Counted from the stretch's first letter, positions 47,064 through 53,199 are shown. The stretch: DNA of 64,000 nt from Thermoleophilia bacterium (GCA_017882605.1 JADGPE010000001.1:1-64000); one strand, 5' to 3'. A program made the numbers and translations. Notes: generated by a model not told the origin, from the letters alone.

Positions 47064-47246
47064 CGTCGCTGCCTCCTGCTCGTGCTGCCGATTACGGGAA
47101 CGGGAAACCCGGTTTCGCCCTGCGGGGGCGGCCTCCTCCACCCCCGGTGTCTCTGCGCGCCACCGACGGCCAGTCAGAACCGGCGGCTAGTCAGGACCAG
47201 CCTGACGGCCAGCAACAGGCCCGGCTCCCCGGTTCACGATGAAGAC

Positions 47247-48641
47247 ATGAGGATTCTCGGCGGCCGACGGCCGGTGCTCGTCATTCTCCTGCTCGTCGTC
47301 GGCTTGGCCGTTGTGGCCGGCGTCGCCTACGCGACGAACGGCGCCGGCAGTGCTGGAACGACGGTCATCCGCGCCTGCCGGAGCAAGAGCACCGGACTGC
47401 TGCGCGTCGTCAACCCGGGGAGCACCTGCCGTGCGAGCGAGACGCTGCTCACTTGGAACGTTCAAGGCCCCGCCGGCCCCACTGGGCCTTCAGGGCCGAA
47501 GGGTGACGGCGGGGCGACCGGAGCCACGGGAGCAACCGGCGCGGCCGGCCCGCAGGGAGGTGGCGGCCCCGCCGGGCCCGCCGGCCTGCCGGGGGCGGTC
47601 GGACCGTCCGGAGCGCCCGGCCTGGACGGGGCACCGGGCGGGTCGGTCTATGCGGTGCAGCCGGGGAACCGCTGCACGACGCACGGATTCGACATCTACC
47701 AGGACAGCGCGCTGATCGGCGCCGTCTGCGACGGGGCGACCGGCGCGGCCGGGCCGACCGGGCCTCGCGGCGCTCAAGGCAGTCCGGGCACGCCGGGCGC
47801 CCAGGGCGCGCCGGGCCTCCAAGGCACGGCAGGCCCTCAAGGCGCGGCCGGCCCTCAAGGCGCGGGCGGCCCTCAAGGCGCGGCCGGCCCTCAAGGTGCA
47901 CCAGGCCCTCAAGGTGCAACGGGTGCCGGCGGCCCGGCCGGTAGCGCCGGCTCCAACGGCGCGAACGGCACATCCGTCTATGCCGTGACCTCGAGTTTCT
48001 GCACGAGCGGCTTCGACCTCTACGAGACCGGCGGCCCGTCCGACACGCTGCTCGGGTCGGTGTGTGGCGGGGCCGCAGGCGCCCACGGCGCCGACGGGCC
48101 GCAGGGCGCTCCGGGTGCACAAGGCCCCCAGGGTGTCCCAGGCCCGCAGGGCGAGACCGGTGCTGCAGGCCCCGCAGGCCCCGCCGGCCCAGCAGGCCCA
48201 GCAGGCGCGCAAGGGCCGAAGGGCGACGCAGGGACGGGCATTCAGGTCACAGCGTTCGGGACGGCGAGCGTCGGGCCCGGCGAAAGCGCATCGCTGCTCG
48301 TGGTCCCGAACCGTCTGACCGTCAACATCTCGGACTGCTCCCTCGAGCCGGACGGCTCGTACTCGAGCGACATCTCGTTCACGAACACCGGCGCCGGGGA
48401 CCTCTGGGCGCCGGGCGGATTGCTTGCGGCCGGCGACACTTCGAGTGGCCCGCTCAACCTGGCGATCTCGGACAACGACACGACAACCCTGCAACCGGTC
48501 CATGCGCAGCGCGACTTCGTCGACTGGGACACGCGGGCGACGATTTCGGTCTACCTCGCCGACGAGCTGCACACGGGCTCGAGCGGCGACAACTCGCTGG
48601 CCTGCGGGGCCAAGGCATTCGCCGTCATCACCTCCCCGTAG
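47247..48641 (+). CDS. Secreted collagen-like (Gly-X-Y) repeat protein
   Basis: Signal/TM VLVILLLVVGLAVVAGVAYA, then G-X-Y segments (GPAGPTGPSGPKGDGG..., GPQGAAGPQGAGGPQG...) separated by Cys-paired modules, and a non-collagen C-terminal beta domain. Confidence 0.85.
   Translation: MRILGGRRPVLVILLLVVGLAVVAGVAYATNGAGSAGTTVIRACRSKSTGLLRVVNPGSTCRASETLLTWNVQGPAGPTGPSGPKGDGGATGATGATGAAGPQGGGGPAGPAGLPGAVGPSGAPGLDGAPGGSVYAVQPGNRCTTHGFDIYQDSALIGAVCDGATGAAGPTGPRGAQGSPGTPGAQGAPGLQGTAGPQGAAGPQGAGGPQGAAGPQGAPGPQGATGAGGPAGSAGSNGANGTSVYAVTSSFCTSGFDLYETGGPSDTLLGSVCGGAAGAHGADGPQGAPGAQGPQGVPGPQGETGAAGPAGPAGPAGPAGAQGPKGDAGTGIQVTAFGTASVGPGESASLLVVPNRLTVNISDCSLEPDGSYSSDISFTNTGAGDLWAPGGLLAAGDTSSGPLNLAISDNDTTTLQPVHAQRDFVDWDTRATISVYLADELHTGSSGDNSLACGAKAFAVITSP
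47814..47921 (+). repeat. 18-bp in-frame tandem repeat (six units)
   Basis: ggccctcaaggcgcggcc-type units at 47814, 47832, 47850, 47868, 47886, 47904 encoding GPQGA[AG]-like hexapeptides. Confidence 0.9.
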
Positions 48642-49014: not shown

Positions 49015-49998
49015 CTAGTTGAGGCGGACCTCTTCGCGGCGGTCGCGAGCGAAGAAGTGGATCCCGTCGACGAAGCGCACCCAGTTGCAACGCGTGCACA
49101 TGACGAGCGAGTGCGTCCGCGCGGAGTCGGCGAGGAAACGGACGCCCCGGAGCAGATCGCCGTTCGAGACGCCGGTGGCCGCGACGATCACCTCTTGCGG
49201 CGCGAGATCGTCGATCGTGAAGATCTGGTCGACGTCCTCGATGCCGTGCTCCAGGGCTTCGGCGATCTCGGCGCGGCGCGTGGGCCAGAGCTGCGCCTGC
49301 AGCTCCCCCCCGAGGCAGCGCAACGCTGCGGCTGCGAGCACCGCCTGGCGCGTCCCGCCGATGCCGATCGCCAGGTGATCGTTCGTCCCGCGCACAGCTG
49401 CGCTGATCGACGCAGTCACGTCGCCGTCCTGAATCAGCTTGATGCGCGCGCCCGACGCACGGATCTCCTCGATCAGGTCGTGGTGGCGCGGCCGGTCGAG
49501 CACGATTGCCGTGACGTCGTTGACCATGCGGTCGAATGCTTCGGCGATCGCCCGGATGTTGTCGCCCACCGGGCTCGAGAGCGAGATCTTGCCGAGGGCA
49601 CGCGGGCCGACCGCCATCTTGCGCATGTACATGTCGGGGAGCGAGGGCATCGAGCCGCGCGGCGCTGCAGCGATCATCGAGATCGCATTCGTCCCGCCGC
49701 GCGCAACCACCGAACGCCCCTCGAGCGGGTCGAGCGCGAGGTCGTATTCCTCACCCCCCAAGCCGATGCTGGTGCCGGCGGCGAGCTGCTCGGCGTCCTC
49801 GTGGCCCCCGATCACGACGTGACCGCTGATCGGCATTCGCTCGAGCGCCAGGCGCGCGCCGGAAAACGCGGCGTCCTCTGCAGCCTGCATGTCTGCACGA
49901 CCGAGCCAGCGCGCGCCGGCGAGGGCTGCCCGCTCCGTCACGCGCGCGAACGACTCGCACTGACAGGGGGCCCGTGTGTCGTCGGTGGGCTGTGTCAC
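49015..49998 (-). CDS. glpX: Class II fructose-1,6-bisphosphatase GlpX
   Basis: ARWLGRADMQAAEDAAFSGAR, LALDPLEGRSVVARG, MYMRKMAVGP, ISAAVRGTNDHLAIGIGGTRQAVLAAAALRCLGGELQAQL. Confidence 0.93.
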   Translation of the reverse strand: MTQPTDDTRAPCQCESFARVTERAALAGARWLGRADMQAAEDAAFSGARLALERMPISGHVVIGGHEDAEQLAAGTSIGLGGEEYDLALDPLEGRSVVARGGTNAISMIAAAPRGSMPSLPDMYMRKMAVGPRALGKISLSSPVGDNIRAIAEAFDRMVNDVTAIVLDRPRHHDLIEEIRASGARIKLIQDGDVTASISAAVRGTNDHLAIGIGGTRQAVLAAAALRCLGGELQAQLWPTRRAEIAEALEHGIEDVDQIFTIDDLAPQEVIVAATGVSNGDLLRGVRFLADSARTHSLVMCTRCNWVRFVDGIHFFARDRREEVRLN

Positions 49999-50900
49999 GC
50001 GATCTGTCGCGTCCGCTCGGCGGCCTGCATGACGAGCTCGATCACCTGGTCGATCGTCCGCTCCACGTTTGCATTCTCGATCACGGTCACACCGTCACGC
50101 CGGGCACGGCTGACGATGTAGCTCTGGACGCGGCGAATGGCATCGAGCCGCGCAAGGTACTTGTCCATCGCCCGGACGCCGCCGGTCGATGAGTCCCGCA
50201 CGTGGAAATGGAGCTGGTGCACTTCCTCGTCCGCGATCTCGATCACGACGTGGACGAGGAGCGCGCCTTCGAGCTCGGCCGGGAGCAGGCCCGGCACGAG
50301 GTGCACCCCTTCGAGCACCATCGACCAGCCTTCGGTGATCGCGCGGCGGAGGGCCGCCTCGACGCCGACGCACACGTGACTGCACTGGTCGACGAAGCCG
50401 ACGATCGTGGGATCGCCCGTCACTTCCTTGTCGAGAGCCTCTCCCGCCTCGAAGCTCGAGAAGTGGATCGTCGGCATGAACTCCGGCGAGAAGAATGCGC
50501 GCATCGTCTGCCGAATGAAATCGGTGGACGCGACCCGTGTGATGCCGAGCCGATGCGCGACCTCGGCCGCGACGGTCGATTTGCCCGTGCCGGTGGAGCC
50601 ACCGATCAACAGGACGATGGGCACGTCGAGCGACTGGAGGTCGGCGAGCCGGCGCAGCCGGCCGATCGCCCGTTCCGCCTCCTCGTCACCAAGCACCTCT
50701 CGCGCGAGCTCGTCGAGCCGGTCCACCTCGATCGCCGAGATCCCGCGCTCGGCGAGATCGAGCTCGATCCTCCGGGCCAGTTGGTAGGCGTGGTCGGCCA
50801 GGACTCCGGCGGCAATCAGCGCGCGCGCCATCAGCCCCTTCGAATACGGGAGACCATCGTCCCCGAGCGGCAGCGGCTCCCCGTGCCTGCGTTGGGTCAT
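49995..50900 (-). CDS. 2-phosphoglycerate kinase-like protein
   Basis: IVLLIGGSTGTGKSTVAAEVAHRLGITRVASTDFIRQTMRAFFSPEFMPTIHFSSFEA...VGVEAALRRAITEGWSMVLEGVHLVPG: architecture of the archaeal 2PGK family with ATP-cone-like N-terminus. Confidence 0.8.
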   Translation of the reverse strand: MTQRRHGEPLPLGDDGLPYSKGLMARALIAAGVLADHAYQLARRIELDLAERGISAIEVDRLDELAREVLGDEEAERAIGRLRRLADLQSLDVPIVLLIGGSTGTGKSTVAAEVAHRLGITRVASTDFIRQTMRAFFSPEFMPTIHFSSFEAGEALDKEVTGDPTIVGFVDQCSHVCVGVEAALRRAITEGWSMVLEGVHLVPGLLPAELEGALLVHVVIEIADEEVHQLHFHVRDSSTGGVRAMDKYLARLDAIRRVQSYIVSRARRDGVTVIENANVERTIDQVIELVMQAAERTRQIA

Positions 50901-51997
50901 GCCACGACCGGCATCAGTCCGAGGAGCTGTTCGTCGAGGCCGGGCGCGACGACCTCATTGTGGGCGAGCGCAACCCTCACCCCGTGTGCGAGTGCATGCT
51001 CGACGACCACGTCGATCGCCGCAGCCTTCAGCTCGACCAGATAGGTGTCGGCAGCCACGAGGTCGCCGCGCAGCGCCTCGCGATCCGCGAGATTGGTCGA
51101 GACATGAACGACGTCCGCATCGAGATGCGAAACGTCGCGTGCGCCCGCGGTGAAGACGGCGACACGACCAGCGAGCGGCACGGTGCACCCGAGTCGCAGC
51201 TCGAAGTCCTCGATCACGACGTCGGAGATCAGCCGGCGGTAGGTGTTCAGGTAATCGTCGCCGGATTGGCCGCGGCCGACGACCAGAATTCGGCGATCGA
51301 CGTCGATCGGCGGGATTGCGGCACCGCTGCCGTCGAAGACGACGACGTCGGGGCCTCGCTGAGCGGCGAGCGCGGCGCCTGCCGCGACGTTCGAGACGAA
51401 CACCGCGCCGGCCAGTCCGCCACCCGCACGCCGGCACCCGATCGTGGGCACGCCGGCGAGAGCCGCGATCTCGAGATGGTCGGACGCCGCGTGTCGTCCC
51501 GCGCGCGAGCGCGCGACGAGATCCGCGAGCGACGGCGCGGAGTCGACGACCTCGGGATCCGGCGGGCCGCCGCGCCCCATCGCGACCACAACGACGCTCC
51601 GGTCGCGGGCCAGGAGCCGAGCCAGATGCGTCGTGACCGCAGTCTTCCCCACGCGCTTGCCCGTCCCGATCACCGCGATCGACGGCAGCTCGAACGGCTC
51701 GAGGACCGGCGGATCGAAACGGAAATCTGCACCGACATACGGAAGTCCCGCTGCCAGCGCGCGCGAGGCCCAGCGCATTCGCTCGGCCGGCCCGAGGACC
51801 GGCTCGTCGGAAAGGTCGACCACAACGTCGGCGCCGGCGAAGTCGTCGATGAGCGGCACGCCGTAGTCCTCGCTGCCACGCAGCTTCTCGGTGCCTCCGA
51901 CCAGGATCGCGCCGACCCATTCATACGGGAGCGCCCGCAATGCGTCGCGCACCACCGGGGCGTAGTGCTCGCCGTCGATCAGTGCAACGGCCCTCAC
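50897..51997 (-). CDS. Cyclic 2,3-diphosphoglycerate synthetase-like protein
   Basis: N-terminal VALIDGEHYAPVVRDAL, P-loop IAVIGTGKRVGKTAVTTHLARLLA; directly upstream of the 2PGK-like gene with a 4-nt overlap. Confidence 0.75.
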   Translation of the reverse strand: MRAVALIDGEHYAPVVRDALRALPYEWVGAILVGGTEKLRGSEDYGVPLIDDFAGADVVVDLSDEPVLGPAERMRWASRALAAGLPYVGADFRFDPPVLEPFELPSIAVIGTGKRVGKTAVTTHLARLLARDRSVVVVAMGRGGPPDPEVVDSAPSLADLVARSRAGRHAASDHLEIAALAGVPTIGCRRAGGGLAGAVFVSNVAAGAALAAQRGPDVVVFDGSGAAIPPIDVDRRILVVGRGQSGDDYLNTYRRLISDVVIEDFELRLGCTVPLAGRVAVFTAGARDVSHLDADVVHVSTNLADREALRGDLVAADTYLVELKAAAIDVVVEHALAHGVRVALAHNEVVAPGLDEQLLGLMPVVA

Positions 51998-52785
51998 CGG
52001 CGCGCCGTCACCTCGCGTTCGATTCTGCCGGTGTACTTCTCGTATTCACCGCTGACCAGGTCGAACTGGATGATCCGCTCCTGCCCGTGGAACGGGTACC
52101 GCCGCCAGACCGTGGCGTGACTGCCCGAGACCTCGACGACGTTGTAACAGGGCCGGGTGTTGCCGCGCAGCCGCAGGGTGGAGACGGTTCCCGTGTTGAC
52201 CACGAAGAGACTCTCCAGCTTCCACGCGTACGGCACGTGCTTGTGGCCGGAGAGCACGAGATGGACACCCGCGCGCTGCAGGCACTCGATCGCGTCACCG
52301 GCGTCGTAGACGACATTCCGCTCGCGTCCGGTGCCCGGGATCGGCAACAGATGGTGGTGCAGCACGAAGACGCGCAACTCGGACGGCTCGGCCGCGAATT
52401 GCTCCTCGATCCACCCGTAGCGGCCCCGCCCGATCTGTCCGTGGTCGAGATCCGGCTCGGTCGAATCGACGGCGACCACCGTCGCGCCCGCCTTCCGGAG
52501 CACCGAGCTTCTCTCCCCGATCAGCTCCTCGAAGTGCACGTAGCCGACGTTGCGAGAATCGTGATTGCCGGGAATCACGACGAGCGACTCGCACTCGATC
52601 CGGTCGAGATAGCGCTTCGCCTGGGCGAACTCCTCCTTGAAGCCGAAGGTCGTGAGGTCGCCGGAGCACACCACGATGTCGGGCTTCAGGTCGTTGATCT
52701 CGGCAATCGCTCTCTCCATCAGATCCGGCACGAAGTGCGGGTCTCCACAGTGGAGATCTGACAGATGAGCAATCGTCACACCCAT
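51994..52785 (-). CDS. Calcineurin-like metallophosphoesterase
   Basis: AHLSDLHCG, VVCSGDLTTFG, VIPGNHDSRN, VLHHHLLP, LSGHKHVPY. Confidence 0.92.
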   Translation of the reverse strand: MGVTIAHLSDLHCGDPHFVPDLMERAIAEINDLKPDIVVCSGDLTTFGFKEEFAQAKRYLDRIECESLVVIPGNHDSRNVGYVHFEELIGERSSVLRKAGATVVAVDSTEPDLDHGQIGRGRYGWIEEQFAAEPSELRVFVLHHHLLPIPGTGRERNVVYDAGDAIECLQRAGVHLVLSGHKHVPYAWKLESLFVVNTGTVSTLRLRGNTRPCYNVVEVSGSHATVWRRYPFHGQERIIQFDLVSGEYEKYTGRIEREVTARR

Positions 52786-52830
52786 TCGATTGAGTCTAGG
52801 GCATCCGAGGCCGCTGCTACCCTGGCCTCA

Positions 52831-53199
52831 GTGGTGCCGGAAACACCCGTTTTCCAGGCATATTGCGGCTCAGAGCCGCCGCGTTTCGCCAACCCCGCGG
52901 AGCTCGAGTATGCAAAAGTCCTCGACTGGTATGGCATTCCGTGGCAGTACGAGCCGACGACGTTCGTCCTGGAGCGCGACGACGAGGGGCGGGTCACCGA
53001 GGCGTTCTCGCCCGACTTCTACCTGCCCGACCAGGATCTGTATCTGGAGGTGACGGTGATGAAGCAGTCCCTCGTCACCCGCAAGAACCGGAAGTTGCGC
53101 AAGCTGCGAGCGCTCTACCCCGACGTCAAGTGCAAGCTGTTCTACGAGCGGGACTTCGAACGGCTCGCGGCCCGCTACGGGCTGCGGAAAGCGTCCTGA
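52831..53199 (+). CDS. PD-(D/E)XK nuclease-like / DUF559-type protein of unknown function
   Basis: ELEYAKVLDWYGIPWQYEPTTFVLERDDEGRVTEAFSPDFYLPDQDLYLEVTV...KNRKLRKLRALYPDVKCKLFYERDF; GTG at 52831 within ORF 52765..53199. Confidence 0.6.
   Translation: MVPETPVFQAYCGSEPPRFANPAELEYAKVLDWYGIPWQYEPTTFVLERDDEGRVTEAFSPDFYLPDQDLYLEVTVMKQSLVTRKNRKLRKLRALYPDVKCKLFYERDFERLAARYGLRKAS

Follow-up and report, generated by a model that had tools for sequence, protein, structure and literature searches.

The window analysed here, a stretch of 64,000 nucleotides from a Thermoleophilia bacterium (GCA_017882605.1, JADGPE010000001.1:1-64000), carries on its minus strand a four-gene operon that probably encodes a bacterial cycle of cyclic 2,3-diphosphoglycerate (cDPG), with a metallophosphoesterase (MPE) as the cDPG hydrolase. 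Which reactions the enzymes carry out, MPE in particular, was inferred from the genes. Synthesis of cDPG by the bacterial homologues of cDPG synthetase (cPGS) and 2-phosphoglycerate kinase (2PGK), as suggested by the initial annotation, was strongly supported by the sequence of cPGS, its active-site residues, its predicted structure and its co-inheritance with 2PGK. The operon was regarded as a variant of the known cDPG pathway with a new candidate enzyme.

In the proposed cycle, the 2PGK homologue would convert 2-phosphoglycerate and ATP to 2,3-bisphosphoglycerate (2,3-BPG), and cPGS would consume another ATP in ring closure to form cDPG, by the mechanism shown for the Methanothermus fervidus cDPG synthetase (cDPGS). 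MPE, with its two-metal fold, would then hydrolyse the cyclic pyrophosphate of cDPG and release 2,3-BPG. In this way carbon and phosphate would re-enter gluconeogenesis, in which GlpX or, in relatives, fructose-6-phosphate aldolase takes part.

The four open reading frames (ORFs) lie in the order MPE, cPGS, 2PGK, GlpX, and consecutive ORFs overlap by 4 nt (51994-51997, 50897-50900 and 49995-49998), in exact agreement with the initial annotation. All four showed coding-type GC by codon position, which together with their conservation across dozens of genomes indicated that they are not chance ORFs. The earlier domain calls also held, with matches to PF00149, PF03320 and NF003259 and of cPGS to PDB 8oru, and the motifs quoted for the operon (IDGEHYAPVVRDAL, GTGKRVGKTA, GGSTGTGKST and VLEGVHLVPG) were all present. 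The assembly holding the window is 2.1 Mb in size and 83% complete, and contains a single cPGS copy.

The cDPG synthetase homologue

The cPGS gene (50897..51997, minus strand, GTG start) encodes a protein of 366 aa, on which no Pfam or NCBIfam model scored above threshold. Comparison with M. fervidus cDPGS (PDB 8oru/8ork) by phmmer gave E = 1.3e-62, with three matched blocks that span the N-terminal and P-loop domains, and comparison with a second solved cDPGS (9sxb) gave E = 4e-57. The AlphaFold2 model of cPGS (pLDDT 94.2) had the 2,3-diphosphoglycerate (2,3-DPG)-bound structure 8oru as its top Foldseek match (E = 4e-31, TMq 0.87); the next match was LpxK, with an E value of about 1e-6.

Residue roles were taken from the work on M. 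fervidus cDPGS (PMC10690619) and followed in an alignment of 31 cPGS proteins from bacteria and archaea. It was found that E45, K46, K145 and R146 of the M. fervidus 2,3-DPG site correspond to E37, K38, K114 and R115 of the window protein, and that K149, T150, D208, E404 and K406, which contact Mg, nucleotide or phosphate, correspond to K118, T119, D173, E322 and K324. These nine contact residues, all kept in the window cPGS, were invariant in 31/31 proteins. E37 and K38 belong to a GGTEK motif near the 2,3-DPG site (51884..51898, minus strand), whereas K114, R115, K118 and T119 lie in the Walker A motif GTGKRVGKT (51641..51667, minus strand).

The 2PGK homologue and the phosphoesterase

The 2PGK homologue (49995..50900, minus strand, 301 aa, ATG start) has an N-terminal domain and a P-loop. 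Its product matched the NCBIfam 2-phosphoglycerate kinase model NF003259 with E = 2.8e-81 and 273 bits and another 2PGK model with 270 bits, whereas the mevalonate-3-phosphate 5-kinase model scored far lower (80 bits). One additional, more distant 2PGK-like kinase per genome, scoring about 160-190 bits, was observed in Methanobacteria and Methanopyri (L184-L189); it may be a superfamily member that phosphorylates some other small molecule.

MPE (51994..52785, minus strand, 263 aa, ATG start) is a calcineurin-like metallophosphoesterase, with a PF00149 score of 69.5 bits against a cut-off of 21.5. The metal motifs DxH, GD, GNHD, H and GHxH were present and invariant in the alignment. A family signature, HHHLLPIPGTGRERN (residues 143-157; 52315..52359, minus strand), was also recognized: H143-H145, P150, G153, R154, E155 and R156 were invariant or nearly so in 18-19 MPE sequences from bacteria and archaea. 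The invariant set includes the metal motifs and HHH..P.PGTGRERN...DAGD. The predicted model (pLDDT 90.5) exhibited a compact alpha/beta globular fold, with Rv0805 and GpdQ as the closest structures and purple acid phosphatases among the fold matches. GpdQ and Rv0805 are phosphodiesterases. Judged by context, opening of the cyclic pyrophosphate of cDPG by MPE would be a chemically sensible partner reaction to its synthesis.

Conservation of the operon

Among 199 genomes of the class, cPGS was found in 94 and 2PGK in 92, and 2PGK without cPGS in 0; for the two genomes with cPGS but no 2PGK match, the matches were in fragmented assemblies. By manual count, the operon-type MPE was present in 90/94 cPGS-positive genomes of the class versus ~1/105 of the others. 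Fisher tests on these co-occurrences ignore phylogeny and were used as a guide only. Several relatives in the window's family, one of them in the same genus, had neither MPE, cPGS nor 2PGK, and the absence of all three together suggests that they were lost jointly. In 40 class loci from multiple families, MPE and cPGS stood together in 38, nearly all of which continued with 2PGK in the same order, and the start and stop codons of neighbouring genes often overlapped.

In a sample of the phylum, cPGS was detected in 166/299 genomes. When 20 of these phylum loci were inspected, 15 had MPE, 17 had 2PGK and 14 had fructose-6-phosphate aldolase nearby. No cPGS match was obtained in plasmid records.

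A scan of 85,488 species yielded 525 confirmed cPGS loci; the 80 that were most similar to an archaeal query included Thermococci, Methanobrevibacter, Methanopyri, Altiarchaeota, Bacillota, Cloacimonadota, Acetothermia and Borrarchaeum. Loci in which the MPE family adjoined the cPGS-2PGK pair numbered 12 in Thermococcales, one in Cloacimonadota and two in Borrarchaeum. In these three groups MPE is a tandem duplication, about 500 aa long where complete (L073:4610-6166, L085:10161-11705, L110:10661-12160 and L126:10316-11887), the second half of which was without some metal ligands, and thus pseudoenzyme-like, in Thermococcales and Cloacimonadota. Of 101 Thermococci-group genomes, 79 had cPGS, and 78 of these also had MPE; among the 22 without cPGS, MPE was found in 10. 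The phosphoesterase is conserved with the cPGS-2PGK pair in the class, and its coupling to the pair, first proposed from the window, was recovered across Actinomycetota, Thermococcales, Cloacimonadota and Borrarchaeum.

Observations against the cycle and alternative explanations

Several observations weigh against the proposed cycle. In alignments, the segment containing E305 of M. fervidus, an adenosine contact, was deleted in the window cPGS and its close relatives (the site of the missing loop, CEEP in relatives, is at 51209..51214, minus strand), and this loss may have reduced or altered nucleotide use by the window protein. Because the glutamate is also replaced in the cPGS of Thermococcales, E305 was not taken to be family-defining. 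It could further be supposed that the window synthetase is decaying, its short form being inactive or altered, and that 2PGK supplies just 2,3-BPG. The length of 366 aa (archaeal proteins and most of those in the class have 436-460 aa), the loop loss common to close relatives, and a profile score that was low relative to most full-length matches of the phylum sample would fit such decay. Nevertheless, the reading frame and the catalytic and substrate residues were intact, the high-confidence model fitted the substrate-bound structure, short forms with an intact operon occurred in several genera of the window's family, and the Thermococcales also do without the E305 glutamate. Decay of the window synthetase was judged improbable.

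The score of the 2PGK product, 273 bits, was below the curated NF003259 cut-off of 343, which a Thermococcus 2PGK beside cPGS passed with 381 bits; the protein is called a homologue here because this score leaves its membership unproven. Moreover, the cPGS of Bacillota and Acetothermia stands alone, with no 2PGK or operon MPE family (L093-L097, L100, L102, L104 and L106), and the literature searched contained no report of bacterial cDPG. All three points would agree with bacterial cPGS and its kinase using a different phosphorylated metabolite, the product then being another cyclic pyrophosphate or a related compound and not cDPG. This seemed quite unlikely, however, since the window's group and archaea of cDPG-making groups have identical 2,3-DPG contact residues, 2PGK is co-inherited with cPGS, and the Thermococcales genes keep the same set of partners. 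In the two orphan cPGS proteins checked (L093 and L104), all 2,3-DPG residues were kept.

As for MPE, paralogues with the GRER signature were found in four class genomes free of cPGS and 2PGK (G012, G030, G103 and G118). The signature was accordingly rejected as a cDPG marker and, taken alone, is no proof of cDPG. On the genomic evidence, it is the operon clade of MPE that is tied to the cDPG genes, and not the wider family. Paralogues of this kind (L190-L193) came from genomes with and without cPGS; their neighbours, a rhodanese gene in L190 and L193 (genomes G012 and G018) and CpsB/CapC in L191, had no common function. In 80 genomes of Methanobacteria, cPGS was found in 72, 2PGK in 73 and MPE in 71, with exceptions that mostly did not coincide. 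Their MPE was unlinked to cPGS and did not belong to the operon clade; in six genomes cPGS was present but MPE was not. As all three genes are near-universal but unlinked in Methanobacteria, this group was considered neither to support nor to refute the tie between MPE and cPGS. Finally, the cDPG hydrolase activity of Methanothermobacter thermautotrophicus was reported to be bound to the membrane and to suffer inhibition by K+ and by phosphate (PMC1224877), whereas MPE appeared soluble in its predicted form.

A further explanation is that cDPG is made, with MPE acting as a phosphatase on 2,3-BPG, or on this compound as well as cDPG, and so draining or tuning the intermediate, while cDPG is opened by reversed cPGS or another enzyme. 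MPE is tied to 2PGK as tightly as to cPGS, many calcineurin-like enzymes are monoesterases, with purple acid phosphatases among the fold matches noted above, and reversal of cDPGS has been reported for M. fervidus (PMC1224877). On the other hand, three loci of one family of the phylum sample (L222, L223 and L225, family f22) had the arrangement MPE-cPGS-GlpX with no adjacent 2PGK, the rest of these genomes not having been searched for 2PGK. The nearest solved relatives of MPE, moreover, cleave phosphodiesters. A phosphatase role for MPE was therefore regarded as unlikely, and hydrolysis of cDPG by MPE as the preferred assignment. It is conceivable, though we put it forward tentatively, that the MPE family is the cDPG hydrolase of bacteria and archaea and that cDPG is a common phosphate and carbon reserve across much of Actinomycetota instead of a trait confined to hyperthermophilic methanogens.

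The fourth gene, phosphate transport and the probable role of cDPG

GlpX (49015..49998, minus strand, 327 aa, GTG start) is a class II fructose-1,6-bisphosphatase; its product scored 353.6 bits with PF03320 and 269.8 bits with TIGR00330, over the cut-off of 259.3. The fourth gene of the operon was GlpX in families f1, f3 and f6 and fructose-6-phosphate aldolase in many others, and thus appears usually to encode a fructose-phosphate enzyme. Of the initial interpretation, cDPG synthesis and the coupling of the phosphoesterase were supported and GlpX was confirmed, but the link to gluconeogenesis through GlpX is soft, because GlpX is the fourth gene only in some lineages.

In four related loci, a Pit phosphate transporter, PitA (PF01384), and a DUF47 protein (PF01865) were encoded directly upstream of MPE. 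One of them was observed on another, short contig of the window's assembly (L195, contig C102, 47-2508, at the contig end); its MPE is closely related to that of the window and stems either from a further copy of the operon or from contamination by a related organism. In M. thermautotrophicus, cDPG forms a pool rich in phosphorus (PMC1224877, PMC4302986), and this, together with the transporter genes, favours a phosphate and carbon reserve. In carriers of the operon cDPG would thus likely serve as such a reserve and as a counter-ion; a role as thermoprotectant is possible. A growth temperature estimated from the IVYWREL index (65 C) was dropped because high-GC genomes inflate the index.

Two other genes of the window were noted. 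A small conserved protein, divergently transcribed (52765-53199, plus strand) beside a phosphoribosyltransferase, adjoins the operon across the window's family; it had no Pfam match and contains a PD-(D/E)xK-like stretch, SPDFYLPDQDLYLEVTVMK. The gene at 47082-48641 (plus strand) encodes a protein with collagen-like repeats (PF01391).

Comparison with known systems

Papers published in 2023 and 2025 confine cDPG synthetase to hyperthermophilic methanogens (PMC10690619) and present these as the sole organisms from which cDPG has been reported (PMC12136491). A 2005 review listed Methanobrevibacter smithii as a cDPG producer, among the members of Methanobacteria that accumulate cDPG (PMC1224877), and genome papers mention cDPG genes in Thermococcales and ammonia oxidisers. 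Neither a bacterial cDPG pathway nor a link of a phosphoesterase to cDPG was found in the literature searched; within that literature the bacterial spread of the pathway and the hydrolase candidate appear to be unpublished, though homologues in bacteria may have been annotated in databases beyond those searched. Should the operon function as proposed, many bacteria would metabolise cDPG, among them over half of the species sampled from the phylum, and a candidate gene would be available for testing as the missing enzyme of cDPG degradation. Linkage to a phosphate transporter would shift the view of cDPG from a heat protectant to a phosphate and carbon store, and the bacterial enzymes could aid biotechnological production of cDPG.

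With M. thermautotrophicus cDPG hydrolase, for which no gene was named in the literature searched, MPE would share the proposed reaction, and Methanobacteria carry a member of the MPE family. With the glycerophosphodiesterase GpdQ and the cyclic nucleotide phosphodiesterase Rv0805, it shares the two-metal calcineurin-like fold and the metal ligands, but identity is about 18-20%, and MPE has its own HHH..P.PGTGRERN signature and its linkage to cPGS. Bacterial kinases of COG2074 were already known, one being common to Thermus and Deinococcus (PMC1274311). Compared with archaeal 2PGK (NF003259), the window kinase has the same N-terminal domain, P-loop, and conserved arginines and acidic residues, with this model as its best equivalog match, and differs in its score under the curated cut-off. 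The window cPGS resembles M. fervidus cDPGS (8ORK, 8ORU) in its N-terminal and P-loop domains, its fold and every 2,3-DPG or Mg contact residue that was checked. It differs in its bacterial host, in being 94 aa shorter, in the absence of the E305 loop, and in sharing an operon with the kinase and the phosphoesterase.

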